Of a DNA stretch of 64,000 nt, positions 2 through 38,301 are shown one piece after another. The notes under the pieces were generated by a model. The model was not told the DNA's origin. It made no database searches and was given only the letters and a program-made list of their open reading frames with translations. Location: the NCBI GenBank assembly GCA_022925895.1, contig JAKSYS010000217.1, forward strand, positions 21,851 to 85,850, in the 5' to 3' direction. The position numbers and the translations under genes are program-made. The DNA is from Fragilaria crotonensis (lineage: Eukaryota > Bacillariophyta > Fragilariophyceae > Fragilariales > Fragilariaceae). Position 1 is the stretch's first letter. Each line of letters starts with the position of its first letter.

Positions 2-3000
2 GCAATCATAGCTGAGAGCTATGAACGTCGAGATCAAGAACGCCAACGAAAAATTGCAGTACTCGAAGCGACTGGGAAGCAAGCGGACAAAGAATCAGCA
101 ACTCGGTTGAGACATATGAAAAAGGCCGAAGATATCAAGCAGTTATTTCGCAAGATTAGTGGCGTACGGAAGAACAAATTAAGACAAGGAGTAACGAGAA
201 TTGAAATCCCCTTGCATCCAGACGACAATCCCAAGATGTGTACTGAATGGCGACAGATAGATGTGCCAACTGAGATTGTTCGGCTATTACAGGAACGCAA
301 CCGGGCTCATTTCGGACAAGCAAAGGGAACACCCTTCACTGTTGCACCACTTCTTGACGACTTAGGCTTTTGTGGGGATCGACCCTCGAGTACGAGGATT
401 TTGGACGGCACATATCAACTCCGGACGAACGATGACGATGACGTGAGTAAAAATGTGAGACTCTTGTTGCAGCACATGACACAGGTTCACGAAATGGCAG
501 CGTCCCCCTCGTTTCCAACCATCTCAATGGACGACTTCATGAGTAAATTGCGCGTCTGGTCGGAATCCACCACCACGTCTCCGTCAGGATTACACCTCGG
601 ACACTATAAGGCCTTGATTGCACGACATTCATACTCATCAGACCTCCCAGATGATGAATTGACCCCAGAGTTCCGAAGAAACCGAGACGAGCTTGACATG
701 ATGCAAAACGACCTGCGGACTTTGCACTTGAATCTGTTGAATTATGCGCTTGAGCGAGGCTATTCGTATAAACGTTGGCAAACAATTGCCAATACAATCC
801 TCTTCAAAGATCCGGATAACGTTCGGTTACATCGTACTCGAGTGATTCACATTTATGAAGCGGACTTTAATCTCGCCTTGGGAATCAAGTGGAGGATTCA
901 GATGTATCAAGCCGAGGCCCTGGCAGCATTAAATGATGGGCAGTATGGGTCTCGACCACGACGAAATGCAACGGATCCAGTGTTCATCGAGGAACTCCAG
1001 TGTGAGATCTCTCGGGCCACTCGACGGTCAGTGGTCTTGATCAATTATGATGCGCTTGCATGTTTCGACCGAATGATTCAAAATGCAGCAATGATTGTTA
1101 GTCGGAAGTTCGGCGTTCCGCTTCCAGTAACTCAGGCCAATGCAGTAACCTTGGAGAGCGGAGTTCAGGGTCCGTACAGAATTAGGCCTCGCTCCAAATG
1201 GTTACGTACATTCGGATAGCAAGCCCATCTATGGCACGGGACAGGGCAGTGCCAACTCCCCAGCGATCTGGTGTTTTCTGTCGAGTTGTCTCATGGATGC
1301 CTATGACACGACTGCAACACCTGCGGTATATTATTCACCGGATGAAAGCACGTCAGCGTCTTTGGGATTAGTAGCTTTTGTGGACGATTGCAATGGGCAG
1401 GCGAACAATTTTTTAGCACCAGGATCTGATGAGACGCTTCGGGATATCTTGGTACGCACGCAGAAGAATGCACAATTGTGGAATGACTTACTCCACTCGA
1501 GTGGTGGCGCACTGGAATTATCAAGTGCTCGTGCCAAGTACTCCATTGGTGGTTTACACAGCAAGGAGCACCATTTTTGGCCCCAAAACAATCTGCTCAC
1601 CAAGAAGTGTTGCGTGTCATAGATCGCGCCACCGGCACGACCCATCAACTACCTTTACTGTCACCGTATGAGGCACATAAGACATTAGGGCACTATAAAG
1701 CACCAGCTGGGAATCAAACCGAACAATTTCGAAAACTCAAATCAAAGAGCGACGAGATAACGACCTTCCTGTGGACATGCCCCCTTACGCGACTCGAAAC
1801 ATGGACTTTTTATTATGCCTGCTACCTCCCAAGTGTTGGTTATCCACTAGCGTGCTCATCCCTTACACGACAACGACTGGATCAGGTACAACGGAAAGCG
1901 ATGGCGATCATTGTCCCACGTTGCGGTTTCAATCGGCATACCAAGGGCGAGATCCTCTACGGTCCTTTGGAGTTGGGTGGGCGAACTTCCGTCATCTCTA
2001 TGTTGAACAAGGCATTGGGCAAGTGTCCCTCTTTATGAGGAATTGGAGATTGAAATCGACAGCGGGGAAACTCCTTCGCATTGCAGTCGGATGGTTCCAA
2101 CACCAAGTCGGTACCTCATATTCAATTCTGGAACGAGTCGACACGGTCCTCCCCCATCTAGAATCCAAGTGGCTGGCCTCGCTACGCGACTTCTTAGCTT
2201 CCATACAATCAAACCTCCAACTTGACAATCCGTGCATTCCTAAGATCCAACGTTACCATGACACACATATTATGGACGCTATATTGACTTCTGCGTGGTT
2301 CTCAGCATCGGAGATTCGACGCCTCAATTATTGCCGCCTTTACCTTCAGGCCCAAACAATTTCCGATCTCACAGAGGTTTCGGGGCGTTATCTGGATCGA
2401 GCGAAGTATGAAGGTCGCTTCTCGCATAATAGTAGCTGCACGCACGGCATGTGGATCCACCAGCAATGCCCGTCGCCTGCGGAGTGGAAATTGTGGCAGC
2501 GAGCGAATTTGTTGTGGAGTGATGAATCTGGGAAGTTACATCAGGCATTGGGTCCATGGTTAGACACCATTGATAATCATCGTCAAACTCACTCAGCCTA
2601 TCAACTGAACACGCGTTTGTGGCTGCGAGAACATCAAGATTACAGACTGTGTAAATTGTCGAACAGGACCGAGGAGGGACAGTACGGTTATTGGAGGACT
2701 GGAACACTGTGCGAATGGCAACAGATTCCTCTCGAGGCGTTTCCTGTGGAGGTTTGTCAAGTTGCCGAGGAAGAATGGACTGTAGTTGAGAGAAGCGTCG
2801 TTCGTGTTCCTCATCATCTGGTACATGCTGCAACGTTTGAACAATACGTTGAAGATCTTGAGCCGTGGGAGTATGACTTATTATCTCGCACGAACCTACC
2901 GACGGATCCCCTTTTCGGTCGGACTCGCCTTATCTCAGGGAGTCCGTGGTGTCAGTGACGGGTCGGTTTGGCTTAAGCAAATGGGTGCGTTCGGATGGAC

Positions 3001-3025
3001 GTTGAGCACAGATTTGGGAGAGCGA
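2..3025 (+). pseudogene. Retroelement reverse transcriptase, N-terminal part plus start of RNase H (broken, open at window edge)
   Basis: The frame is open to the left edge, so the gene begins outside the window. It encodes a non-LTR-type reverse transcriptase. I see the first catalytic aspartate region (NYDALACFD, near 1045-1080), then GTGQGSANSPAIW (about 1235-1275), then the F-x-D-D catalytic box (AFVDDCNGQ, Asp codons at 1383-1388). A thumb/connection region follows, then the start of RNase H with the catalytic Asp in VSDGSV (about 2955). The frame changes near 1195, 1523, 1980 and 2925, so this copy is not translatable as it stands. Two of these changes (1523, 1980) look like one missing base in a run. 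The RNase H domain stops abruptly after LGER at 3025 and resumes at 15290, on the other side of an inserted transposon. The clade is not certain because the 5' part is missing. Confidence 0.8.
3024..3025. repeat. Left copy of 2-bp target-site duplication (GA)
   Basis: GA lies immediately before the left terminal inverted repeat and again immediately after the right one (15288-15289). Two bases alone would be weak. However, deleting 3026-15289 leaves one GA and joins the RNase H codons in frame, which supports both boundaries. Confidence 0.65.
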
Positions 3026-3038
3026 CATCAGAAGGTTG
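3026..3038 (+). repeat. Left terminal inverted repeat of the 12.3-kb transposon
   Basis: CATCAGAAGGTTG matches the reverse complement of 15275-15287 at 12 of 13 positions. It interrupts the RNase H frame of the host retroelement exactly here. Confidence 0.75.
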
Positions 3039-3282
3039 GGGCTTTTACAGTTGGACATAAATGGTACAATTTTGTAGTTTTCAATGGTACATTTCCTACA
3101 AAACTTCACATGTCTACAGTACATGCTGTAAAAAATTGTATCATTTTGAATTTGAATGAATCTTTTTTGTTTGGCGCGTCACAAGTGCTACACATGACAA
3201 ACTAACATCGCGTTTCCGTTACACTTTTCTTCCCTCCCCACCGGCAGTGATTTCCCGCCCCCCCACAGATGTTACGACTATG

Positions 3283-3289
3283 TATAAAA
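3283..3289 (+). promoter_or_regulatory. Possible TATA box of the transposase gene
   Basis: TATAAAA lies about 110 bases upstream of the chosen transposase ATG (3397). The first in-frame ATG overlaps this box, which argues that translation starts further down. This is a motif match only. Confidence 0.35.
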
Positions 3290-3396
3290 TACACTCCAAT
3301 GATAACAATCCACAGTCGTTATTTAAAAAGAATGCACACTACCTACATAACGATCTCACCGCTCACTCCATTGCCTTACTCACAAGATCAGCATCG

Positions 3397-6300
3397 ATGA
3401 ATCCACCAGGCCGCAGGAACACTGACACACATTTGTCTGCTGATGGCAAGAAGCGAAAACACTCTAATCACTCTTGCACCACACTGAAGGAACGCTGTCC
3501 CTCCTGTGGTCGAGAGGTCAAGGTTGGTCAAATGTCACGACACCTTTCCACCAATCAGCAATGCGTTGAGGACTACCCCAGGGATGGTGTCCCTGAATGC
3601 ACCAACACCATTGTTCGTGCAAGTGTTCCAGCAAGAACTGCAATTGAGGGACAATGCCTCCCGGACTCAAACAGGCACACCACCTCTCACTCCATCACAA
3701 ACAGATTTGTGGAACCAGTTGACTCTGTCACACCATTCTTTCCCCGTACCGATGATGATTTTCCAATTGAATCATACAATGATGAGGATGTTCCACCAAG
3801 TGAATATCATGATCGCACCATATCTGAAATCCAGCCCAGCACCACAACACAAGCAGAACAAGTCCACTTCACCACCACCCTAGCAGACGATACCATCCCC
3901 TCTCAACAGGATGGGACCACTGACTGTCACTCTACAGGCCAGGCTGACGACTCCTTGCTTGCCGCATACGAAGGAGCCATCACCAGTATGAATGATGGGG
4001 GCTTGTCACTATCACTTTTTTCTCGTGAAGAACAGGTCCAAATTGACCTCCTGCAGACATTAAACAGACTTGGTGCTCCAATGAAGGCTTATGAGGAGGT
4101 GATGAGATGGGCTACGAGGTCAGTCCAGCAAGGACACAACTTTTGCGATGCACAGTTGACATCACGCAAGACATTAGTTTCGAAACTCAGTGCGCGTCTC
4201 AGTCGAGTTGCCCTTGAGCCCATACGTGCAGACCTGTATCTTCCATATTCAAATGTTACAATAAGCATCGTTTACTTCAACGCTTCAGCTGTGTTCACTG
4301 ACCTACTTTCCTGTCCCCAGTTGAACCGTGATGAGAATTACATCTTCCATGGTGACTTCAACCCTGATCACAGTCCCTTTGCCATCCCCTCTCGAAATGT
4401 TATCGGAGACATCAATACTGGTCGCTCCTATCACTACACTCACAGAAAGCTCTGTCAAAATCCCAACGACATGCTCCTTCCATGCGTCCTTGCAATAGAC
4501 AAGACAACATGTGACATAAGCGGTTCGGGTCGCTTACCCATGGAACCCATTACAATTCAGTACGGTCTCATGAAGCATGACGTCAGAAAGAAACCATTTG
4601 CAATGCGTGTTCTGGGATATATCAATTGTTCAACAACACATTCCCGTTCCAATAGCAATCCAAATAGGGCGACCCCTCTACCAAGGTCTCAAGAAGTTTC
4701 CGATGCAGCCTTGAGACTAAATGAGTACCACATGCAGGTCAAGTTTATCCTGGAACGATCAGGATTTCTTGCTTTGCAAGAACATGGTTTCAAATGGAAC
4801 CTCAAGTATCATGGCAAGAGTTTCCAAACTGTCTTGCATCCCTACGTTCCCTTCATCATCGGCGACACAGAAGGGCATGACACCCTGTGTGGTCACTACA
4901 GGTCGCGTACATCTGGTGTTTCACAGTTGTGTAGGGTGTGTGAATGTCCCACAGAAAAATCTGGCTGGTCCAAAGGCCGCTACTTCACAAGGCGAACACC
5001 AGCAGCTGTCAATGATCTGGTTCACCGTGGGAACCTTGAGGGTCTGAAACTTAAGTCTCAGCACTACCTCTCGAATGCTTTTGACACAGTACGGTTTGGA
5101 CAACATGACAAACGAGGTATATTTGGCGCCTGTCCAGGAGAGATTCTTCACCTTGTCTTGATAGGGTGGTTCAAGTATGTCGTGGAATCCTTCTTTGCTC
5201 AAGCGGGGAAGAATAGCATTGCCGTTCAGAAGTATGTTACCCTCTGTCATGACATAGGCCTTCAACTCGACAGACAGAGTGATCGCAATGTCCCTCGAAC
5301 ATCGTTCAGAGATTTCTCCACTGCATCTAATATCCCTGGCAACGAATACGCTGGCTGCCTGTTCATCATGCTCATATCCATGCACACGTCGCGATATACA
5401 GAGATCTTTGCCAGATCTCGTTTAGCAAAATGTCAGAAGGCTGCCGACAAACACCTAGGTAACCCTAACTTCATGGAAGACTGGAAGGACCTTCTCACAA
5501 GCTTACTGGAATGGCTTGCTTGGTTGAAACAACCTCAGATAACTCGTGTGTCAGCACAACGATCAGTTTTTGCCACCGCACATCTGATGCGCCTTGTAAA
5601 GTTTGTGGCTCCACGATTCAAAGGCATGTCAAATAACACAATCAAGATGCATTTGGTGCTTCACATCCACGAAGACATCATTAACTTCGGTGTCCCAGAG
5701 GTGATGAATTCTGCCTACGCCGAGTCATCCCATCGTCCGATAGCAAAGTTCACCGTCAGGAACACTCAGAAGCGCCACAAATCATTCACATTCCAGGCAG
5801 CAAATCGTTATGTCGAGAACTTGTCCATTGATCAAGGAAGCCAGGTTGTTTCAGATGACAGAAAGAAGAATACATTAACCGCAACAGGAGTGGCAAGAGC
5901 GTGGACTGGTAAGGAGTTCACCATAACATTGGACGACAATAAGGTTCCAATTTGTGAATGGAGATTGGACAAGAAGAAAAAGTCACAAGTTCCAAGTGTC
6001 CGTCCAATCCCTGAAGATCACGTGCTATCGATGATAGCAAACCACTGTCATCCCCATGTCTTCCCACCAGTCATCCACTGTCAAACCGAATTTATCACTG
6101 ACGAGGGTCAAATTTATAGAGCACATCCTTCCTACCAAGATGCTCCATGGTATGACCATGTTCTCCTTGACTGGTCAGAGTGTGACGATCCACTTCCAGC
6201 CCGCATTTGCACTTTCATCAATCTGTTTAACATCAAGGCAAACGCATCTATCTGTTTCCCGGAGTCTGGACAGGAGACAGTCCCATGCCCCCCCGGGCTG

Positions 6301-6723
6301 TACGCTGTGGTGGAATCATACGATCCAATCCCACCATTCACCAGTGATGCAGACGACGAAAGCTTTGATGCCGAAGATGATACCCCTCCCGATCTCTTCC
6401 AACACTACACCAAGACTCTCCTGTCAGACAACATCTCACCCAAGCTATACCTTGTCAATGTCAAGGCTATCGTTGGCCCAACAGTGGTTGTCAGGGATGT
6501 TGTGGGACATCCCTCGGATGTGTCGGTTTCAGATAGGCGGTCCCAAGACACCTATATATTCATGGCAGTGCGTCGTAAGGAATGGGCATCTCGCTGGGAA
6601 CATAAGGTAGACCTTGCATATCAGGAGAAGAATGAGGATGGTGCGGAGTCAACTGAGGATGAGGATGACAGTGCGACCATCAAGGACAGACGGATGTACA
6701 AGAGGATGCATGGCACAGCATAG
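3397..6723 (+). CDS. Transposase, Plavaka/CACTA-like (CMC superfamily)
   Basis: This is a single 1,108-residue frame starting at the ATG of MNPPGRR. The open frame extends 50 codons upstream, but only through a GTG and an ATG overlapping a TATA-like motif. A Cys2-His-Cys finger (C34, C37, H49, C56) near the N-terminus should bind DNA. An acidic, Ser/Thr-rich linker follows. The core has LAIDKTTCDISGSGRLPMEP, a typical first-aspartate region of this family, then IGDTEGHDTLCGHY with a CRVCEC cysteine cluster, then GACPGEILH, and later MNSAYAESSHRP, a candidate position for the catalytic glutamate. The protein would cut and join the element's ends. It is the only gene of the element without a frameshift, so it may still be active. 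The assignment is to the family; I cannot place the exact clade. Confidence 0.75.
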   Translation: MNPPGRRNTDTHLSADGKKRKHSNHSCTTLKERCPSCGREVKVGQMSRHLSTNQQCVEDYPRDGVPECTNTIVRASVPARTAIEGQCLPDSNRHTTSHSITNRFVEPVDSVTPFFPRTDDDFPIESYNDEDVPPSEYHDRTISEIQPSTTTQAEQVHFTTTLADDTIPSQQDGTTDCHSTGQADDSLLAAYEGAITSMNDGGLSLSLFSREEQVQIDLLQTLNRLGAPMKAYEEVMRWATRSVQQGHNFCDAQLTSRKTLVSKLSARLSRVALEPIRADLYLPYSNVTISIVYFNASAVFTDLLSCPQLNRDENYIFHGDFNPDHSPFAIPSRNVIGDINTGRSYHYTHRKLCQNPNDMLLPCVLAIDKTTCDISGSGRLPMEPITIQYGLMKHDVRKKPFAMRVLGYINCSTTHSRSNSNPNRATPLPRSQEVSDAALRLNEYHMQVKFILERSGFLALQEHGFKWNLKYHGKSFQTVLHPYVPFIIGDTEGHDTLCGHYRSRTSGVSQLCRVCECPTEKSGWSKGRYFTRRTPAAVNDLVHRGNLEGLKLKSQHYLSNAFDTVRFGQHDKRGIFGACPGEILHLVLIGWFKYVVESFFAQAGKNSIAVQKYVTLCHDIGLQLDRQSDRNVPRTSFRDFSTASNIPGNEYAGCLFIMLISMHTSRYTEIFARSRLAKCQKAADKHLGNPNFMEDWKDLLTSLLEWLAWLKQPQITRVSAQRSVFATAHLMRLVKFVAPRFKGMSNNTIKMHLVLHIHEDIINFGVPEVMNSAYAESSHRPIAKFTVRNTQKRHKSFTFQAANRYVENLSIDQGSQVVSDDRKKNTLTATGVARAWTGKEFTITLDDNKVPICEWRLDKKKKSQVPSVRPIPEDHVLSMIANHCHPHVFPPVIHCQTEFITDEGQIYRAHPSYQDAPWYDHVLLDWSECDDPLPARICTFINLFNIKANASICFPESGQETVPCPPGLYAVVESYDPIPPFTSDADDESFDAEDDTPPDLFQHYTKTLLSDNISPKLYLVNVKAIVGPTVVVRDVVGHPSDVSVSDRRSQDTYIFMAVRRKEWASRWEHKVDLAYQEKNEDGAESTEDEDDSATIKDRRMYKRMHGTA

Positions 6724-6934
6724 CGTAACACAATTCTACACCCATTAGTGAAAAACAGATGAATCAGATGTCCAACGGCTTTCAGAACTGTCACCACCAT
6801 CAGATTCATATCCCTCCAACCCTGTCGTTTCCGGTTGTGGAACCTTCGCACGGATTACATAAGGTATCGCTTTCGTATCCCTCCCATGGCACCAGGCTGC
6901 TTTGCTCTGACAACCTCCAACTCCACTTCAGGTC

Positions 6935-8798
6935 TCAAGAACTTTTTAACAAAGTCCTCAATAGCTCAGCAAAATCCGGATCATCGAAGACATAAGCATA
7001 ACTGCAAGAAAGCAGCATTGCAGGTTGTAACGTCAAGTGATCAAAACTGACCGCCTGTATCATCGTGAGCGTTTCCAACACTCCCACATCGCCCGTGCTG
7101 TGATTAACATAGCCACTCCCCACATCATGAAGAGTCTCGTACTCCAAGTGTACATCGATTGATGCACCCGCGTTTGAAGGCACTCTCGCCATGAGCTGGC
7201 GTCGGTCATCATCTGTCCAGTATGGCAGCGCTTCTCCATGACGCGTTGATGCCCTTGCAACGTAGTAATGTTGGGTTTCACGTGAAAATGCATGAAACCC
7301 AACAACCACTGTCTCGTATGCACCAACAACATGACCCATCATCACCTGAAAGTATAGCTGTAAGTGCTCGCAAGGAACCACCAACCGTTTCCAGGTTTTC
7401 AGCACCTGTAGCGTCACCTGCCATGGGTAAAGCAGATCTTCCTTCTTTCCCTTCCTTCCTCCAACGACCATCCTGAAGCCCTTCACCCACCCAAGGACAT
7501 GCTCATAATCTTGCTTCGGGTCTCCCGTGCAACCCCTCCCACCGTTACCAAATTTGCTCATAACGTTCTGCTTGGGCACTTTATCTTGAGGCAGACTCGG
7601 CGCTTTTCCATTGCACATTCCCAGTGGATGCGCATGTCTGACATCATACTCCAGCACCTCTGGCATCCAACTTGGGTTTCGTAAACTCCACATCATGTTG
7701 CACGTAGCACTCGCTCCAAATCCAGGCTGCACATCACATAGTCTTGTGGTGTCCTCCGAATACCCAACACCCTGGGAGCATCAGCATTTGTCACGGACGT
7801 TGTGTCTGGCAAACGACGGCGAGGACTAGCCAACATCCGGTCTTCATGCGAACGATCTTGACCAGCGTCCTCATTGGAGCGCTTTTTACCGTGATCCTCA
7901 ACGTCCATGCTCCTCTGGCGCTCCTCATCGTCAAGCGTCACGATTATGTCTCGATTGACAGGCCACCGTATCTCCGTTTCCGAAACCAACCGATCATGCC
8001 ATTTCCGATGAGGAGGTGGTCCACCTGGCATTTTCCTGGGTGTATTCTTTCTCATGCCATGAGAGTATTGTCCTTGACCCGCGTCAACTTTCCCAGAATC
8101 CTGTGTCACATCACGTGGCTTTTGTGAAACCACATGATCGTTGCGGCCATCGTGGAATCCGTCGCGTTCTCTCACATGGGTCTGTTCCACCATCTGATGT
8201 TCTTCCAAGCCCATCAAGTGGCTAGGGGAACTTCCATAATCAGAATGGTAGTATACGGAGTCCACCCTGCTGATACGAAGATGGACAGACGTAGGAGGAT
8301 GTTTCACTTCATCAGCACATCCCGAAGCCGGGTTGACGACCAATTCACCACAACTCCTGGTGAGAAGACCAGTACTGCTGCTGTCTTCCGCCAGCTCATC
8401 ACAACGTGCAGCATGTGGAACAGGAGGCTGCTCTTCACAAACTGCTGCAGGTGCAACAGTTTGTAAAGCTTCGCCTGCAAGGAGTTGCCTCATCAGCCAC
8501 CGACGTCTCAACAGCGACATCATCAGCACCAACCAAATCCACCGGATTGGTGATGTCACCGTCATCGAATGGCTCTACTTCAATTCCAAGGTCGACACTA
8601 CCCTCATCCGAGCAGTCACTGGCGAGGCTGTTGTCCTCCATGATTCCGCGTCATCATCAGGCGCAACACTGACGGATGTTTCATCAACGTCCATCTCCAC
8701 GTCAACCACAGCGCCACCAACACCCACCACTCCCGTCGAAGGACATTCCTTGGCTTGAGCCGCATGCACCACATCATGCGTTGAGGTGCCTCCAGATG
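6935..8798 (-). pseudogene. C-terminal part of the transposon's long minus-strand gene (broken)
   Basis: This region continues the frame chain of the gene that begins at 11094. I read it as one gene because the peptide character carries across each shift: a very acidic stretch (about 8800-8440), then a polar His/Arg-rich linker (8440-7730), then a folded-looking C-terminal block of about 250 residues ending at 6935. That block holds motifs such as LYPWQVTLQVLKTWKRLVVP and VVGAYETVVVGFHAF. Frames change near 8790, 8630, 8500 and 7720. I do not recognise the C-terminal domain. It could also be a separate gene, since there is a Met near the start of the last block. Confidence 0.45.
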
Positions 8799-11094
8799 TC
8801 AACAAGTTCGCCTTCGCATCATCACTGCGATTGCCAACGCACGTTCAGCCTCTGTCAGAAGCTTGTTCAGGTCACGAACAGACCTATCCGCAACACTGAC
8901 TGCCCTCTTCGCTTCCTCTAAGGATGCAACAGCCACATCAAGCTCCCCGCGCAACGTGAGCACCCTCTTGGAAAGTTCACCAACTTCCAACTTTGCAGAA
9001 CATTGGTACGATGCAGCTGCCTTGCGCGTCCCATACCGAACAATAGCAGTCTTTGCAGCAAAGAATGTTCCATACACATGTTTTCCCTCAGCACGCCTCA
9101 TCATTGAAGTGCAGTGCCTGATGAGCCTGCCATCCCAGCTGATCATGACACCATGTTTAAGACGTATAGCCATTCCGTTGTACGTTGGACCCTTCCCATC
9201 TCGTTTTCCGTACACATTCGGGAGAACAAAGTACCAGTCGTCAGTACTTCCAGGATCATCCTCGGTCCAGATGCTAAAACCCTGAGAGGCATCATTAACA
9301 TCATAGTGTGACGCATTGGAAAGGTCGACACTGACATCCATGGTGTTCGTAATGTTAGCAAAACATCCATCTCCAGCCATCCCATGCCTGGGAATGACCC
9401 CACCATCCACTTCCAGATCCTGCATTGTCCTTAACACAGCTGGAATCGAAACAGCTGCAAGATTTGCGGATGCCACCACAGCATCCCTCAGTAACGACTG
9501 GGCACTCTCCTCAGAGGACGTCACATAGCGGGTTCTGTGCACACCATCAAGGCATATCCTAGTACCAATTGGGTGCATGGAACCCAGGTCACCTTTACCG
9601 GCTCTCGCCGAGTTTTGGTTACGTGATCGAACCGTCTGTGCATGTTTCCTGATGTCACCAAGCATCTTATCAGCAGCCGGGCCGAGTGTCGGTAGGTATC
9701 GAATCTGTATGACACTGTCCCGCGATACAGACATCTTCCCGGTTTGCGAACCCGGGTGGTTGACTTGCACCGAAACACACACATCAACGTCACCATCGGA
9801 GGGATCGATCACAAGACTCTCGCGTATGCTGATGACCCGGTGCAGAAATCCAGAGACGTAGTGTCGACAGCCACGTTTCGCCGAAGGGGACGCCTCCAAA
9901 CCAGCGTTGTATGCCCTGCGAAGATAACGCCCCTCGACCATGGCGTAATCCTGACCCTCCACATGGTCAGGAGCAAGACGAGGCCCCTCCTCATCAGGAC
10001 ATTGCCGAGCATACATGACCTTCTTCATTGCCTTAGGGAATGGAAGGAGTCTCGACGTAATTCCCATCGCATCAGAATCCAGAAGGAAATTTGAGGAACC
10101 ACGAGAAATTCTCCACTTCCATATTTTGTCCACGTTGCCATCCCACAAACGGCTAACGTAGCCACCTTTAGCGAAACGATTGATCCTAGATCCATTACGT
10201 ACAATCCGAAGCCAATTCATGTCCATCGGAATGTGAGTGTTCGGAACGCCGACCGACTCGTGTCTTTTCTCACGATGACAATAGTAAACACCAGCCTCTG
10301 GCAGAACAACCACAAGACATCGATATCGCTTGTCATACTTCGCATCGAGGAATTCGGCATCACCCTTAGCTTCACAGGGTGTCCACCACCTCCTTACCCG
10401 TCCTACGCCTAGGAATCCTCACCGTACGTGCGATAACGGCATCCATCATCACAATCTCCAGGTAGTCAGGTCGCGTGACGACGGAATGGATATCAACTCC
10501 ATCATTCATGTGATCGCGCATTGCAAGTGACACATTCGTCAAGCCATACATTTCCAGGAAAGTGCGGTGAATGACCTGAACATTCGTGTTCAACAATTGA
10601 GCACTACCAGGAATCCCAAACACAGGGTCGTCAGGGACAGGCTTCCCCTTCATCGCCGACAACACCGTCTTCCAAGTTTGATGGAATCTGTTGATGTCGG
10701 TGCGAGGCAAACACTTTGCGATGACATTAGCAAACTGAGTCTTCGAAGGATGCCACGCTTTGCGAGACATCGGATCACCACCAGGAGCCTTCCCTTCCAA
10801 GTCACCAAAGACACGTGGATTGGAAGAGCCCGCGATGAGATTACGAGCAGTCTCACCCGGAAGGGTCCTACCACCAAAGAGAACGAGTGGCTGTTCCTTG
10901 AAAGGAACCGATCCACCGGTTCCAACCTTCCCATGCTTGGAGCTCCGATCTACGTCGTACTCGAGGGGCTTCATGTGCGCAGCACCACCGGCCTTCCTTT
11001 TCCTTACTATGTTGGAGGAACTTTCATTATTCACAATAACAGATGGATTATGGCGCAAAGGAGAAGAACCGTCCTTCCGTTGACTCCCCGACAT
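8799..11094 (-). pseudogene. Transposon cargo protein with putative Fe(II)/2-oxoglutarate dioxygenase-like core
   Basis: The start is taken at the ATG of MSGSQRKDG (11094). The N-terminal 240 residues are basic and unrecognised (10372-11094). One frameshift near 10374 separates them from the 520-residue main block, which opens with GDAEFLDAKYDKRYRCLVVV. Near 9308-9114 the block has SNASHYDVNDASQGFSIWTE, then YFVLPNV, then RLKHGVMISWDGRLIRHCTS. The H-x-D pair (codons near 9308-9300), a second His about 62 residues later (IRHCTS) and a basic residue soon after are spaced like the iron and 2-oxoglutarate ligands of a double-stranded beta-helix dioxygenase. A long coiled coil (roughly residues 430-490 of this block) ends it. 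Some fungal transposons carry TET/JBP-type dioxygenases, so a DNA-modifying role is possible, but this is inference from motif spacing. The function is unproven. Confidence 0.5.
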
Positions 11095-11229
11095 GATCTC
11101 GTCACCAAAAAGCCTGACGCAGCACAGTATGAACAGCACACTGATGGTGATGTTGTTCAGGGACAGAACAACCTTAAAACCCGGGAAGAGAATCCGATGG
11201 AACTTGAGGTGACCACTATATGGTGAGTC

Positions 11230-12110
11230 GATCAACAAGTGACCCTTCAGAAATCCGTCGCCAGAGTTGAAACCAAAGGATACTCCAGATGATCACGACA
11301 AGCACCACTTTATGGTGAGTGCTGCCTGTCAAATTACTCAACAATGAGCAAGAAGACCGTGAAAATGGGAACGTATCCAACCACAGCTACTACACTTTCG
11401 CTTTGTGGTGGTTGCTGCCGCCAAAAAAGTCACTCCAAATGGGAGAACGTTCAAATGTATAAAATTAAAGTATAAAATTCTCCAACAGAGTGGGATGGCT
11501 TCCCGTCACGATGCAACGGTTCCGAATTGCTGCCTGAAACTTGGCAATCCTGATGGGACAGCAAGCCGCAGGCTCCTCAGTAACCCGCACTTGTAGAATG
11601 GAAACGCAGAACTCCACAAGTTGCAACTCCAAATGGGAGAGCAAGCTTGACGTTCAAAACGTAAGAATTCTAAATGGAGAACGGAGTGTGCAACCTGATT
11701 ATCAGTGTGGTCGCAGACGGGAGCGCAACGCCAGGAGCCACGTCAAACTGTGTTTTCAACCTTTGTGTTGATGCCGCCTTGATGCGACAAGACAACGCCG
11801 ATCGGCGTGGACGCAAACGGATCAAAGCACAACTGTAGTCACTTGCGACGCGTGGCTGCGAACCGTTCCAAACGCAGCCGCAGTCACTTCCAACGCGTGA
11901 TAGAAAATCCTGTCAATCAGGTGTTCACGTCCGAAAAGACCGACGTCGACACACTCAATTCGCAATCTCGCAACTCCTAATGGGAGAGCTTCAACTGCTT
12001 GCCAGTAACCGATCAAACAAAGTCAACTCCTTGATGGGAGGACAGTGATGATCAAAGAAACCAACTTTTGTGCTGTGATTCGCAGCGCAAAAGCAAGAAA
12101 ACCAAGAGAG
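11230..12110. repeat. Dispersed short repeats, ACTCC(n)TGGGAG type, upstream of the minus-strand cargo gene
   Basis: At least five variants of a small palindrome occur here: ACTCCAAATGGGAGAACG (about 11432), ACTCCAAATGGGAGAGC (about 11626), a degenerate CTAAATGGAGAACG (about 11669), ACTCCTAATGGGAGAGC (about 11975) and ACTCCTTGATGGGAGG (about 12025). CTCC and GGAG can pair around a 5-6 base loop. A second motif, TTTATGGTGAGT, occurs near 11219 and 11311. No gene is seen. These could be transposase-binding or promoter sites. Confidence 0.45.
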
Positions 12111-13363
12111 GGAAACAAGATTAGCACAAGCACTTATTTTTGCAGGCGTGTACTATGCCAAAATAAGTAGCATAAGGATGTGTTGTAGCAAGAATCAGAT
12201 GTGGGACTTCGATTTTTTCCTTAAGTAAAGGAGATAGCAATGTGAATATTAAGTGATTAACTATGTGTGACTTTATTTTGTGCATACTACATACAGTCGT
12301 GCACAAGCTCTGACGGCGTGACGTACTTAAAGTAACAGGTCTTGCACATGATGTTTGTTGATAATTCATCAACAACAAAGACTTAAGTATAATTAATAAA
12401 GCAAAAAATATAACATGTGAATCAGAAAATAGCAATAGAAGAGACTAGTAACACGGTGTTCAACATTGAGTGACATGTATACTCCATCTACCAGTTACAT
12501 GTGTTATTGCAAAACAATGATAGTGACACATATGTATGGGAAATAGGACATGTAGAACGTGCGTACTGACAATAGCGATTCCTCGTACGCATAGTATCAG
12601 ATGTACTAGTTTTAGAAAGTAGGAATATTTGCTTCCGTTGGAGTACACGTAGTAGTAGGTAGCAGTAATAAGCGTACTGTCATTGGTTCAAGCTATATGT
12701 GCTGTACGTAGCAAATGTGTACTACTGTGGTACAGGATAACTACATACGGAATGCGGAGTTGAGTTATTGGTACCTGGTACTGTAGAGTACGTCAAGCAC
12801 TAATAGTACTACCTAGGTAGTATGTGTTTCGATGTTGTTCTGCGACAAACACCAGTACAAAAGACCAAAAACGATAACAGCTTTGGTACAGCGTACCATT
12901 AATTTTTGCTGTTGTGAACCAGCAAAGTATGCGCAGCATTGTTCAAGCGACGTCATAGTTCATAGCACTATATTACTGGCGCAGTTTCAAAATTAAAAAA
13001 TGCGTCATGCAGTAATGAACAAATTAAAACATACAGTGTATGTTCAAAACAGTGACATATACTGTACAAGCAGTATATGCAGCGTGTAGTTAGATGTTTT
13101 GGATTCAAACATGTAGATGTATACTACATGTTTGAAATAATAGTTAATTTAAATAAAATGTGGTACATCTCACTGCTAAGTATTTGAATACTTGAAATAA
13201 ATGACTACAACATGAATAAATATGAAACACAGCTACGTACATTGTCACGTAGGGTATACGTAGTCAAAGCTGAACGACTCGATAGCAATAAAATGCAAAG
13301 CTTAACATAAAAATTCACAACACAAAAGGCACTTAAAACGCATCTTAAACACCATTTTGAACA
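12111..13363. other. AT-rich non-coding spacer inside the transposon
   Basis: No convincing coding frame on either strand. The sequence is AT-rich with many GTAC and TACTG words and scattered short palindromes. It probably holds the promoter of the accessory gene that starts at 13364. Confidence 0.5.
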
Positions 13364-14924
13364 ATGGCAACAGCAAAGGGTAAGAAAGCAAGGGCAAAGA
13401 AAAGGGGAACTCCAATAGTAAGAGGTGTGCTTGTAGCAAACAATGCAAACACAGGAAGCCCTGGTAACAACAGGAGGGTTAGTGGCCATAGAAATGGTGA
13501 AGTTGAGTCACCATCAGTACTGGAACGACTTGGACAAAGTAATTCTCAGGAGGCAAACGATGGGGGCGGTTTGGAAAATGCACGCGGTTCTCCATACAGA
13601 GATGCTGCATTGACCACTCCGTCGTCCACTCCTCCTACGGGAGTGGACGCCCTTCCAATTGGAGGGGTTACCAACGCAGCCGTGAGAGTATTACAGCAAC
13701 AACGTAGTCTTATGGCAGGACCACAGATAGGTGACAGATCGGGAAATGGTGGACGCATTTCTACGTTCAGAGATGCTGCAACAACAACCAATCTGATGGA
13801 ATCGCTCAGACAACAAGTCCAAGTAAGGAGGGAAACGCCCCTAACAACGACAACTACTGGAAACGGCGGACCACTACGAAGGGTTATTGGTGATCAAGCT
13901 TCCCAGAATCGTGATTTTCCATCGGCAACTACTGATGGGTTGATGGAGGAGGTTGATGAGAATACCCCACCTTACATTCATGCTGCGCTTGGTAGGGATG
14001 AAGATGACGATCTGATGGACAACACAGAAACACAACTGTCTGGGAAATCTCTGTCATACAGGAAGGCCAGACATTGTCAACAAACACATGTAACGCATCG
14101 TATACAGAACTTGGTAAAGAAAGTCATCTTCAGAAAACTCAAGTTTGTGACCAACGATGCTCTGTTCTGGAAGGCGATGAAGGTTGTCATTGACGCTGAG
14201 GATCCTGTGGAGCAAAGTCGGTTTGTGAAGATATACAAAACATGTGTCCTTCAGAGTCTGAACACAAAGAGGAGTACATGTGAACAGGCGGGTGCAAAGA
14301 TTGCTAGGGAGCTCCTTATTGCAAAGAATCATCCTATTGGGTCGAGAGCCCCCATACTCAGTGGAGACGCTTTGCAAGTTGAGAAGGTCAAGAACTGATC
14401 ACGAGAGAGGCATTCCACTGGTTTATTGGAGAATTTCTTGAGTGCGTCTCTGGTAGGAGGGTATGGGGAAGGAAAAAGTTTACCCACAAGGTGTCGGATC
14501 CAATGGAAAGGGGAAGTGCAGAGAAAGTTGTGACTGTGTCAGATGAAGCGTTTGCCATTCTTGTTTATGAAAACTACATTGATAAGTGGTTGCGGAAATA
14601 CACCTGTGAGCGACAAGGGGTACAGGGTGAAAACACAAGTGAGATTGAGAAGAGAATTAAAGGAAGATACACTGCAGGAACAACAACACGAGCAGCAAAC
14701 ATAATGTATGGGGGGTGGAGTGATGAGGGCCTCATCCGTTCAATCAGTTGTGCAGATTGGTGGCAATCGACCGACAGAATGAAAATGCAGCGCAGATGGA
14801 GGAACAGGTTCTTCAGAGGCTGAGAGAACAGAGGTATGGAATTGGTGGAATTAATGATGGCACGGAACAACCTGATGAATCAATGCTGCGATGGGAGCCT
14901 GTGGAGGCATTTTGTGAATTGTAG
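13364..14924 (+). pseudogene. Transposon accessory protein (two frameshifts)
   Basis: The ATG at 13364 opens a basic start (MATAKGKKARAKKRG) and a 200-residue low-complexity region rich in Thr, Gly and Asn. A conserved-looking helical part follows (IQNLVKKVIFRKLKFVTNDA onward). The frame breaks near 14391 and again near 14739. Adding one base at each place gives one continuous protein of about 520 residues ending at 14924. The later part contains KGRYTAGTTTRAANIMYGGW, then a coiled-coil-like tail. I associate this YGGWS-containing type with diatom mobile elements, but I cannot give it a function. It may be a DNA-binding partner of the transposase. Confidence 0.6.
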
Positions 14925-15287
14925 AATAGGAGAAACTTCAATGCAAATCTGTCACCGTATAAATATGAATAGTCACTGTTATGTTGTTACACGTAATAAT
15001 TTTAAGTCAGATGGTAAACTGCAATATTACGTGTGAGTAAAAAATGGCGAATTCGAATATAAATGTTACAGAGCTGCACTGGACTCAAAATTTTTTGTTT
15101 CTTTGGGTCGGCAAATGGTACACTTTGGTGCAGAGAAACAAAAAATTGTGAATTGTAAAAAACATACTACAGTGCTCAGACAAAATTATTGAAGTGTACA
15201 AAATAGTTACAGGCGTGTACTGGACTCAAAGAAAAAATGTACAGTGTAAAATTTATTTTACAGTGTAACATCTGCAGCCTTCTGATG
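14925..15287. repeat. Right subterminal region and inverted repeat of the transposon
   Basis: The segment is AT-rich. CTGGACTCAAA occurs twice (near 15079 and 15222), and TACAGTGTAA-type words occur near 15240-15270. The terminal repeat is CAGCCTTCTGATG at 15275-15287. Repeated short words next to the ends are typical of transposase-binding sites in CACTA-like elements. No gene is seen. Confidence 0.5.
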
Positions 15288-15289
15288 GA

Positions 15290-16432
15290 TCGGCTGAAGG
15301 GATGGGCCCAGCCCCAGGAGCAAATCCTAATTCGTATCGGTCTGAAGCGTATGGAATGTTGGCCATGTTGTGTTTTTTGAAACGCCTCGCAGAGTTTACG
15401 TACCAACATGAACCGTGGTGCGGCACACTCGCGACCGATAGTTTGAGTCTGGTGGAGACGGTTCTTGGCATTAAACGGAAACCATCTGTGATGGAGGCCG
15501 CGGTATCGGAACCGGAACCCGTGCAGCTTCCATTGGATCCTCTGAGCCCAGAATGGGACTTGATCGTTAATATCCGTCGGTTGCTTTGCGAAATGCCGGG
15601 GCTAAGCCTGGAACATGTACGAGGTCATCAAGATCGTCGCGGCACCTATCAGCGATTGAGTCTCTTGGCACAACTCAATGTGGATGCCGACGACCTGGCC
15701 AACACTTTCCAGCGTGAGTATGGCGCGATTCGACCGCTTGCCTTGTTGACAGAGGAGGCTGGCGTTCACTTGATTACACCGAAGGGAACCGTCACCACGA
15801 AATATAAAACAGCCATTCGACATCAAGCGACCTATGGTCCATTATTAGCTCATCTTCAAGCACGAAATGGATGGAACGCTAGTGCGACAGAACGGATCAA
15901 TTGGAAAGCGCACGCTGCATGCCTCCACAAGCGCATCAAGCGACGAGATCACTACATCAAGTTAGTTCAAGAAATACTACCGACTAATCACCGGCAGCAT
16001 AGACGGGATCCTAGCCGCAGAGGGTGTCCGGTGTGTCCGTGTGGTGATGAGGATTGGGACCATATTCTGCGATGCGCGCATTCGAGTCGAGCGGCGTGGC
16101 GAGCGAACTTACTCACGGTCATTGGAAAGACTTGTGCCAAATGGGAAGCCAGAGAGAAAAAATGCGGAGCCTTTGCGGAGTATTCTGATTTAGGGAAGGA
16201 ACTTGTCGTGGCTCAGATGGGACAAGCTGAGGCACAGAGGAAATTTTCCGAGGCTGGAAGTCGGTTGGTTCTTGATGACCCCTCCGGTCTGCACAGCACG
16301 CTTATAGAACAGCTGGTTTCAACGGCTGCACGTGTTGCCGAAGTGGTCGTTCATATGGCTACAACGAACATGTTTCAAGTCACAATTTACATTCATCTAA
16401 CAAGTATAAGGCTATCCCGTTCCATGCCGTAA
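15290..16432 (+). pseudogene. Retroelement RNase H remainder and C-terminal zinc-knuckle region
   Basis: This is the continuation of the protein interrupted at 3025. It opens with GPAPGANPNSYRSEAYGML, carrying the RNase H Glu, then LATDSLSLVETV with the second Asp, then LEHVRGHQD and LNVDADDLAN with the His and last Asp of RNase H. About 100 residues later comes CPVCPCGDEDWDHILRCAH, a Cys/His cluster of the kind found at the C-terminus of non-LTR retroelement proteins. The frame is open to 16432 without a break. This half is separated from its N-terminal half by 12.26 kb. Confidence 0.8.
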
Positions 16433-16532: not shown

Positions 16533-17517
16533 TTATAACCAGGGAAAAAGGAGGCCGGATACCAATGTTGAGCTCCCCGCGTAATTAATGCCACCAACGA
16601 CCCAGACTTGACAATCGACTACTGTCATGGTGCTGATCGGCATTTTCACCTCCCAGACGCGGTGGCCCGTACCAAACGAATCCATCGCCTCCAAAGTAGT
16701 TGGGATTGAGGACGCAGGAGGGGGACTGGGCATTGATCCGGAAAGCCGAAACTAGCCCGTTCAGGGTCCCAGACTGTCCATCATTACCCCAGTTCGCTTG
16801 GCCTGTCGCTTGCTGGAATTCGACCCCGTTACCCGGGTAGCTATTATCCTCGTTCCAAACACCAAATCCCAAGAGGTTGCCATTCGAAGTAGCCCCCTCT
16901 TGACTTGTCCAGCCGGTGATATCAAATGCCCCATAGATGAAATTGGCATCGGCTTTGAAATAAGCCGTGCCGCCACCGTTGCCGATCGTGGCGGTGGCTG
17001 CGCCGGTCCATTCATTGGGGCTGATTATCCCGTCGATGTTTGGGGGGTCGATTACATTCACAGGAGAGTTCACACATCCAGTGGCAGGGTCGCAGCTGTC
17101 CACCGTACAGGCCTTATTGTCGTTGCAATCACGCTCTTTTGGAGGATTCGTAGGAGCACGCGTTGGAAACTTCGTTGGAGGGCGCGTTGGAGCGCGCGTT
17201 GGATAGCCTTTGCCTCCTTTCAATAGACGCTCCTCCGGATCGATGATGAGGCAAGCGCTCGTTGGAGCGCGGGTCGGAAACGTCGTTGGAGCGCGGGTTG
17301 GAAACTTCGTTGGAGCGCGCGTTGGAGCGCTCGTGCCCTTGCCTTGTTTAAGCAAACGATGCTCGTCTTGATCGATGCTGACGATGCTGTCCTTTTCAAG
17401 CTCGTCGCCAGTGGTGATCGAGTGGGGGGGGATGTTGTTCTGGGCACAGGCAGTGTCACCGAGAATGGCAATGGCCGCGACGAATCCAATGGACAGAGTC
17501 GGAATGGAAAGCTTCAT
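16533..17517 (-). CDS. Secreted PT-rich protein with carbohydrate-binding CBM9-like domain (one frameshift)
   Basis: The start is the ATG of MKLSIPTLS. A hydrophobic signal peptide (about residues 1-25, ending near ACAQ) predicts secretion. Two blocks of APTRAPTKFPTRAPT-type repeats follow, a common linker of diatom extracellular proteins. Next is a short Cys-rich piece (DCNDNKACTVDSCDPATGC), then a domain starting NIDGIISPNEWTGA with AYFKADANFIYGAFDITGW. This resembles family-9 carbohydrate-binding modules (IDG...W...Y...D...LY). Near 16660 the frame shifts by one: the first frame ends in an unlikely tail, while the other gives RVWEVKMPIS...NYAG and ends at 16533, which fits the fold better. 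Probably a cell-wall or mucilage protein. The ligand is unknown. Confidence 0.6.
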
Positions 17518-17829
17518 GGTCACAGTGAATACCTTTCTGTGTTGTGCGTGTTGTGTTGTCAGTGTTGTCAGTCGTCAGAGCAATTAAAGAGAACCCAACT
17601 GAATGGATCTATGCAGCAGCAGAAACAATGTTCCACTCCAGTACTTACGAGTAGATTGGGCTGACGACACGATAACTCGACGGCTTTTTCCCAAGTTATG
17701 AGAAAAGTGGATGCGAAATGAAAGTGGTGGTGTTCTCAATATTTGGATTGAGGATGGTGGCAAACATTTGGGGTTCGGATTTGGTTGACTTGATTGTTCG
17801 CTGGCATCGACACAAACGCTAACGATGGG

Positions 17830-36150: not shown

Positions 36151-37423
36151 ATGGTGGACGAAACGGCTGAATCCGGGACAGGGTTTGGAACTACGGTCCG
36201 CGCATTTGCGTTCGACGGCGACGAAGCTAGATACCGCTCATGGGAGGTAAGACCCTTGCGCTCGCCAGCTCGAAAGGATTTTTGCTCGCACTAACCAGAG
36301 AGAGTACCGGAACGGCACTAACGGTTGAACAGTTCGAGTATGGAGAGGTCGAAGTCACGCCAGCGACGGCGGCTACTACGGGCGGCACGGCTGCCGCTAC
36401 AGTCATGCGTCCGACGACAACGGCAGAGAACCGGAAGTACCTGGCAAAGGCAGCAGCGTGGACATATTTGGTCGCGAGTTGCACCGACAAGGCCTATGCA
36501 CTTATTGAACGGTGCGAAGGGGATCCGTACAAGGCATGGTCTATACTACAAGAGAAATACTGTGCAACGGACGCGGAAGAGAATTACCCGAGCTGGATCA
36601 GGCATTTAGCGATTGCAAGCTTGTTGGGACGAAGAAGGACCCAGAACTCTGGTTCAATGACTTGGACCACTTGAATATGAGGCTCGCAAGGATCAACTTG
36701 AAGTATGAGAAGGACGATCTGCAAATGAAGAGTCACATGATGACAGCTATGTCGAAGGACTATGACAGCGTCATCGTCAAGTTCCGTGGAGACCTAAGCG
36801 AGACGCCTCTTGCGAAATTGCAAAAGGAAGTGGTACTCCAATTCAAGACCCTTGTCAAGGATGGTAGTGGAAGGAGCTCGGAATCGGTACTCAGCTCCAG
36901 CAACACATTTAAGGGAACATGCAGGAATTGCGGCAAGATTGGCCATAAGGCACATGAGTGCAGGTCAGCCAAGGTCGAATCTACGGAGGGTCCCACGAAG
37001 GAAGCCAGTACTGCCGACGACGTCGATAAGTCAAATGTGACATGCTATAATTGTCAAGGGAAGGGGCATTATGCGAACGAGTGTGCGAGCGCAAAGAACT
37101 TCAAGTCTGACCCTACAGCTGATATGGCAATGTTTGTCGGAGCGTCATGCGTGGATACTATGCCCGTCTACAAGGGCTATGACTATTGTGCGGATGTGGG
37201 AGACAGCTTCTTCGACAACATGTCCGATTCAGTGGCTTTTGGCGAGGTTGATGACACTTTGTTTGGTCATTTGATCCTGGCCGGTGGTACTTGTACTAAG
37301 AACGATACTAAAACTGCACGCATTGAGGACACTGCGGCGGAGACTGAACCAGTTGCCATTGAGGTTGAGTTGGTTGAAGAACAGGAATCAAATGTGACTT
37401 GGACGTTCTTGCAACTGACATGA
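36151..37423 (+). pseudogene. gag: Copia gag with two CCHC zinc knuckles (two frameshifts)
   Basis: The ATG at 36151 opens MVDETAESGTGF..FAFDGDEARYRSW, a normal Copia gag start. The frame shifts near 36246 and 36590; each is explained by one missing base. The middle has DPELWFNDLDHLNMRL and LSETPLAKLQKEV. Two RNA-binding knuckles follow: CRNCGKIGHKAHEC and CYNCQGKGHYANEC (both C-x2-C-x4-H-x4-C). The frame ends at 37423 and the next continues from about 37400 in another frame. Confidence 0.8.
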
Positions 37424-38301
37424 ACACCCCTATCATGGCTACCAATGAAACTACGGACAAAAATGATAAAGTCATTGTCATGCCAAGCGCTTGTGTCGGA
37501 TCAGCAGTTACGCTAGGACTTGCGGAGGAATGGCTACTTGATGATGGCGGCGCTACTGGTGGCGTCGCATACGACAACAAACATACGACAGATTTGACGG
37601 ATTCGAATCGTGACGTCACTATCGGAAATGGTGGCGAAGTTCCAGAAACCATGTTGAAGGACCTACCGGATGACAAGTTGACATTGGAAATGCCTGGACT
37701 TGTTGAGATCGCGGAGGATGTCCCTGCTACTATGGCTGTTACTGGTGTTGCACCGTTGGTCGCAACGATGGAGTCATTTTCTAAAATTCTGAAGTCACTT
37801 GGGCTTATTCGCCAATGCAAGACCGATCCATGCCTTTTCTACCTATTTGACAGGTACGGAAATTTACAGGCAATCGTGGTTGCGTGCTGCGATGACTGCA
37901 TTGCTGTTTTTACTGGACACGAGAAATGGTGGGTCACGAAGCTCAAGACTGGAATATCGGGAGGAATGACCATGCCGGAAGGAATTTCGGACATTTTGTA
38001 TGATCCCCAGAACACGGAGGATGTCAAGATGTACTGTGCTACAAGTGCTGCTCAAGATGTGTCGAGTAATACTGTGTCATCCGGACACTACTCGAACAAC
38101 GACAGTACACCAGTATCTAGTATCTGTTCCGGTGATCACGGCAGTGTTGATGGTTGGACTGTAATCCAGGTCAAGGCTAAAGCAAAGAAGACTAAAGAAG
38201 CTCCACACAGAAGGAAGACTGAAGAGTCTATTATTGGTGTGAATGGGATTCACAAGGTGGTGAATGGGAATGCAATTGCAGCTGATGGGATTGGAGTCTA
38301 G
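37399..38301 (+). pseudogene. Deleted Copia pol remnant running into the 3' LTR
   Basis: EEWLLDDGGATGGVAYDN is a degraded Copia protease site (normal form LLDSGA). SNRDVTIGNGGEVPE follows as in intact elements. Then integrase and most of reverse transcriptase are absent and the frame jumps to FSKILKSLGLIRQCKTDPCL, with IVVACCDDCIAVF where a working enzyme has YVDD. It then crosses into the 3' LTR and stops at 38301. It is not a functional enzyme. Confidence 0.75.

Follow-up and report, generated by a model that had tools for sequence, protein, structure and literature searches.

A complete Plavaka-type transposon with PlavakaB-like ends, very probably recently moved, in a retroelement copy of the diatom Fragilaria crotonensis

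We analyzed a stretch of 64,000 nucleotides (C134:21851–85850, hereafter the window) of the Fragilaria crotonensis genome (62.1 Mb, 881 contigs), in which a copy of a retroelement is interrupted by a DNA element of about 12.3 kb. Our analysis makes it highly probable that this element, complete and recently moved, is a Plavaka-type cut-and-paste transposon whose ends resemble those of PlavakaB, and that it belongs to a family with three genes: a transposase gene (T), a convergent gene that may code for a dioxygenase (D) and a third conserved gene (W). The class as such is already known from fungi; what is new is its presence in a diatom, the fixed set of three genes and, as a hypothesis, the candidate dioxygenase.

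The interruption can be placed to the base. The retroelement frame, reading ...WTLSTDLGER, stops at 3025 and resumes at 15290 as TCG GCT GAA GGG. The first-pass annotation of the window had read here a 12.3-kb transposon with 13-bp inverted ends and a GA duplication, whose removal together with one GA joins the codons in phase, and each part of this reading was borne out. The two ends agree at 12 of 13 positions, their inverted similarity extends at 72% over 43 nt, and GA stands on either side of the element. For an empty-site test, the 200-base joint of window positions 2926–3025 and 15290–15389 was compared with five retroelement loci outside the window. It is uninterrupted at 200/200 bases in L056 (C515), L057 (C75) and L058 (C197), which are three loci or partly alleles, and likewise in L059 (91.0% over 199 bases) and L060 (89.5%). 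Altogether nine non-window contigs, those of the five tested loci included, match both retroelement flanks, the two matches lying 0 to 16 bases apart. At L056 a single open frame of 1125 amino acids (aa), reading ...LGERSAEGMGPAPG..., spans the joint; an intact relative with an extra segment at this place was also looked for, and this frame has none.

The accompanying claim that the transposon splits an RNase H domain stood only as regards the interruption of the retroelement. The RNase H label was a by-eye reading, and no Pfam RNase H model matched in the retroelement, whose RVT_1 match (23.3 bits) also lies under the cut-off of 29.6. The window copy of the retroelement ends early, near 16147, while other copies go on with a common 3' part (tails compared by eye); past that point the window enters a repeat of ~285 bp that is also present at C134:14808–15089 (99%) and in C722 (100%).

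Further copies of the transposon define the same ends. The left 377 bases have three matches in the genome and the right 393 bases have five, the window's own included in both cases. The copy on C340 is full-length and 99.3% identical over 12,289 aligned positions; that on C161 is also full-length, in two pieces at 99.6% and 98.7% parted by a 3.56-kb insertion. Among the window, C340 and C161 copies the 60-base flanks on each side differ, CATCA..TGATG termini are found in all three, and the 2-bp duplications are GA, CA and CT, respectively. Because the C340 and C161 copies share the end bases and their duplications differ, CAT..ATG is to be counted with the element, which leaves a 2-bp duplication. 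An alternative delimitation, with an AT duplication and ends starting from CAGAAGG, was rejected: CAT..ATG is constant in the copies, and it is the next two bases that vary and match. Two more copies, on C160 (about 92–94%) and C599 (about 90–93%), are incomplete and have diverged further. In the 62.1 Mb there are 13 occurrences of the 13-mer end and four of a reversed control pattern; since eight of the 13 are ends of the five family copies, the exact 13-mer is largely specific to this subfamily. The genome search for the two ends that had been proposed along with the first reading thus returned copies starting and ending at the same bases. The insertion in the C161 copy (L006/L007) lies at element position 9749; its inverted ends, AGCTGGTTTT, are 10 bp long and its GTAC duplication 4 bp, and judged by these features it is another DNA transposon.

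Both the retroelement copy and the transposon are young. Over positions 800–3025 the window retroelement shows no substitution against the empty copies at L056 and L057 (2,222 and 2,220 aligned bases), but 6 and 9 gaps, respectively, per 2.2 kb. Between the element and the C340 copy, 12,229 aligned bases contain 25 substitutions and 45 gaps; against the C161 copy there are 8 substitutions in 9,739 bases and 12 in 2,495 (20/12,234). The relative order initially proposed, retroelement first and transposon later, holds. Among the gaps in the C340 comparison 34 are single-base, 23 of these in runs of three or more. This excess of indels suggests assembly errors, with many false indels that break genes in silico, so the frame breaks of D and W noted below are not to be read as decay.

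Table 1. Features of the transposon and its host retroelement in the window (window positions).
Feature	Position	Strand	Basis and remarks
Host retroelement before the insertion (reverse-transcriptase region, start of RNase-H-like region)	2..3025	+	Frame-broken in the window copy; RVT_1 below cut-off
Left target-site duplication copy, GA	3024..3025	.	Read in the sequence; three empty sites have one GA at the joint
Transposon	3026..15287	+	12,262 bp; ends common to three copies; three retroelement copies lack it at this site
Left terminal inverted repeat CATCAGAAGGTTG	3026..3038	+	Start identical in the C340 and C161 copies; inverted repeat computed
Left subterminal AT-rich region; its TTTACAGT/GGTACA-like words recur near the right end	3026..3225	+	6-mer counts, ends versus interior
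Gene T, Plavaka-type transposase, 1108 aa from ATG 3397	3397..6723	+	Open frame 3160–6723; an upstream in-frame ATG is present
Gene D, convergent to T	6742..11094	-	Ends approximate; at least 4 frames in the window copy (open frames 6935–7780, 7693–8574, 8799–10418, 10372–11292)
Candidate dioxygenase core of D, residues 335–469 of a 539-aa frame	9012..9416	-	HxD (H371, D373), distal His H435, SWDGRxxRHxTS
Gene W, the third conserved one, on the strand of T	13364..14924 (approximate)	+	Frame broken near 14390 in the window copy
Right subterminal region, similar word repeats	14938..15287	+	6-mer counts; direct repeats at 15065 and 15206
Right terminal inverted repeat CAGCCTTCTGATG	15275..15287	+	End identical in C340, C161, C599 and C160
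Right target-site duplication copy, GA	15288..15289	.	Read in the sequence; empty sites
Host retroelement after the insertion	15290..16147	+	Matches the empty copies for 858 bases before diverging

The transposase places the element in the Plavaka class through its relatives. We aligned 11 proteins, namely the window T and ten relatives that are 41–50% identical to it. The Plavaka model PF18759 matches nine of these 11 at E ≤ 1 (best 8.2e-9), and the transposase of L026, scanned alone, scores 31.8 bits against a curated cut-off of 26.3. The window transposase itself has no Pfam Plavaka match, a point that counts against the assignment; on these profile matches, Plavaka membership by transposase is reached through the relatives of the window T. 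Left ends of the form CATCAGAAG or CATCACAAG lie upstream of T in seven of 11 distant loci examined; the end is doubtful in L021, and none was seen in L025, L028 and L046. On C829, where T is 49% identical, an element of about 11.75 kb has CATCA/TGATG-type ends on both sides and a TA/TA duplication; on C1, the other locus whose right end was fetched, no such end was seen. These termini correspond to those of PlavakaB, described in fungi by Kojima (2025; PMC12730594) with 2- or 3-bp duplications and CATCA..TGATG ends: by that definition, as the account gives it, both features are present here, the duplications being GA, CA, CT and TA. The element had earlier been called one of a little-described type; that label stands in part, and on the same account the type can now be named, as Plavaka and, by its termini, PlavakaB. 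The subterminal TTTACAGT/GGTACA-like words are possible candidates for transposase binding sites. A scan of the genome with the Plavaka model gave 80 matches that fall, by eye, mostly into two groups of profile range (about 39–170 and about 72–318), which suggests a second Plavaka lineage in the same genome. Among viral sequences in IMG/VR no relatives of T or D were confirmed.

The three genes recur together in the genome. D is one open frame of 1099 aa in the C160 relative, and W, which has no Pfam match, runs from stop to stop over 559 aa in C340 and 525 aa in C160. Counted as merged neighbouring matches, which gives lower bounds with only part of the candidates scored, relatives form at least 40 T, at least 76 D and at least 73 W clusters. 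D lies within 12 kb of T in 22 of the 40 T clusters, and all 22 pairs are convergent with D downstream; W lies within the same distance in 27 of them, always (27/27) downstream on the same strand. Both genes stand beside T in 19/40. Likewise, W is found within 9 kb of D in 32 of the 76 D clusters, with the same arrangement in 31 of these. We compared the window (or C340) copy with C160 for the ratio of nonsynonymous to synonymous substitution rates (dN/dS): T has 0.12, two pieces of D have 0.14 and 0.18, and for W the window piece gives 0.36 and the C340 copy 0.20. By these ratios all three genes look maintained by selection. Some results tell against a common three-gene unit: D and W are frame-broken in the window copy as assembled, 18 of the 40 T clusters have no scored D within 12 kb (at least four of them, L030, L032, L037 and L038, do carry D-like sequence) and 13 have no scored W. 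Further, a crude measure of the correlation between T and D identity gave rho 0.20 (p 0.42) over 18 distant elements; over 21 elements rho is 0.50 (p 0.02), the smaller set being the one that excludes the near-identical subfamily.

What D codes for is the least certain part of our reading. An HxD motif followed by a distal histidine is the usual look of the iron site in 2-oxoglutarate dioxygenases. All of the 10 aligned D proteins have H371, D373 and H435, in contexts like SHYDVNDASQG and ISWDGRxxRHxTS, even though these proteins are mostly 36–55% identical to the window D. Among fetched loci that cover the sites (a set including L004, L006 and L015, each a copy or close relative of the window element), H371 and D373 are each present in 20/20, H435 in 20/21 and K456 in 19/20; K456 is a possible candidate for the 2-oxoglutarate contact. 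By eye, the spacing D-x5-HxD-x2-[ND]-x3-G resembles that of TET2. The genome also contains C5-DNA-methylase domains (PF00145; 13 matches on nine contigs), so methylation from which to escape is plausible.

A number of results point the other way. The distal histidine is missing in one D (L030), and D matches no Pfam dioxygenase family. Against PDB profiles the sole chain up to E 10 was an antibody, at E 1.3. In an hhalign comparison with TET2 the HxD motifs are aligned, at a score of 9.1, below the 18.4 reached by the best of 100 shuffles. Two further results speak for neither side: a single-sequence AlphaFold model made with no alignment has a mean pLDDT (predicted local distance difference test) of 31, and the TET/JBP model PF12851 has no match in the diatom's own genome, just as its control lacks any match. 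A pattern search for D relatives in GTDB genomes gave eight stretches, none of them confirmed. The negative sequence results are not decisive, because some fungal transposon dioxygenases, those of the PE type, likewise almost escape sequence comparison (HHpred E-values of 1.4 and 19) and were recognized through predicted structure (Kojima, PMC12730594). According to the same source, all TET-bearing Plavaka fall in PlavakaB.

These results leave two accounts of D in contention. In one, D is a DNA-binding or structural partner of the transposase, not an enzyme, and the HxD...H pattern is coincidental; in En/Spm elements the second protein has a comparable partner role. The absence of a dioxygenase match by any sequence method used fits this account, as does the constraint on the C-terminal part beyond the candidate core (dN/dS 0.18, C160 versus window). 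It has more difficulty with the conservation of the three residues across proteins so diverged, and with the distance of about 60 residues between HxD and the distal histidine, the latter in the context ...GxxISWDGRxxRHxTS, which we take to resemble that of 2-oxoglutarate dioxygenases. We give the partner account a substantial chance, if short of an even one. In the other account D would be a 2-oxoglutarate/Fe(II) dioxygenase that aids escape from silencing by oxidizing methylated bases; judged by its motifs, this is a real possibility, with a chance likewise short of even. More tentative again is the wider proposal that there is a diatom PlavakaB-type lineage in which a DNA-base dioxygenase, so divergent that sequence comparison does not reveal it, is a standard gene and not an occasional capture.

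The following mechanism can be proposed. As expected from its transposase family, T would bind the inverted ends, excise the element and insert it where the target has been cut with a two-base stagger. On the dioxygenase reading, D would oxidize methylated bases and thereby let the element evade silencing, as proposed for TET-bearing fungal transposons, and W might act as an accessory transposition protein. The low dN/dS of D and W and their fixed place beside T would reflect retention for their service to the element.

The class assignment has a weaker rival, namely that this is an ordinary CACTA/EnSpm or KDZ (Kyakuja-Dileera-Zisupton) element and not a Plavaka. Sizes above 10 kb and accessory genes are also features of the giant EnSpm/KDZ elements of algae (PMC12477816), and Plavaka and EnSpm are placed in one superfamily (CMC/CMCT) by Kojima (PMC12730594). 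On the definitions in the latter account, CACTA/EnSpm elements have CAC..GTG ends and 3-bp duplications, and KDZ elements 7- or 8-bp target-site duplications; the present element has CATCA in place of CAC and duplications of 2 bp, at odds with both, and Plavaka was the sole transposase model matched in the T scans. We therefore regard this rival as improbable, and the Plavaka assignment is kept in what follows. Far less probable still is an artificial join of unrelated contigs: the assembly is fragmented (881 contigs) and indel-rich, but both borders fall exactly at the ends of two other copies, with GA on both sides and exact empty sites, and a misjoin would restore neither the 2-bp duplication nor the reading frame.

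Among known systems the closest is PlavakaB of Agaricomycetes, which shares the Plavaka transposase, the CATCA..TGATG ends and the 2-bp duplications; some of its members carry a TET/JBP dioxygenase, where the diatom element has a gene for a candidate Fe/2-oxoglutarate dioxygenase (PMC12730594). As far as that account describes the fungal elements, the diatom family differs in its host, in the order T>, <D, W> with two further genes family-wide, in a D that has no detectable relation to TET/JBP in the sequence tests made, and in an HxD motif as against the HxE of the PE-type TET, the type named there for Plavaka. The giant EnSpm/KDZ elements of the brown alga Ectocarpus, another stramenopile, are likewise large DNA transposons with accessory genes; they are classed as EnSpm/KDZ/Sola, the passages on them describe no Plavaka-type ends, and the word dioxygenase is absent from the main text of that report (PMC12477816). 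In the protist Amoebidium, also outside the fungi, giant repeats carry a Plavaka transposase beside repeated accessory genes, but in the form of clusters of up to 50 kb with many tyrosine recombinases, unlike the compact 12-kb unit with D and W seen here (PMC11244446). Potentially active Plavaka-type transposons (EnSpm-Plavaka) in an alga are reported from the green alga Auxenochlorella (PMC12633428). A search of titles and abstract openings, with Repbase outside its range, found no description of Plavaka in diatoms.

Some other features of the genome and window were recorded. The silicon transporter model PF03842 has 19 matches in the genome, 18 of them over the cut-off (best E 4e-193); only one of 14 control genomes was matched, below the cut-off, a result in keeping with a diatom host. 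At C97:29749–33762, three silicon-transporter domains lie in one open frame of 1456 aa. On the minus strand of the window, positions 16585–17574 hold an open frame with PTRAPT-like repeats, presumably of the kind found in diatom surface proteins. By eye, CCHC zinc knuckles and a copia-like piece can be read in the open frames at window positions 36509–38301, probably a broken long terminal repeat retroelement.

The window amounts to a base-exact natural experiment, in which a single genome holds the filled site, its empty counterparts and near-identical copies of the element, and it extends elements with PlavakaB-type ends to a diatom. Should D be a dioxygenase, the family would provide, in a genome that encodes methylases, a testable case of transposons of distant eukaryotes undoing host DNA methylation alike. 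If the diatom lineage does carry such an enzyme as a standard gene, transposon-borne anti-methylation enzymes would reach from fungi to stramenopiles.

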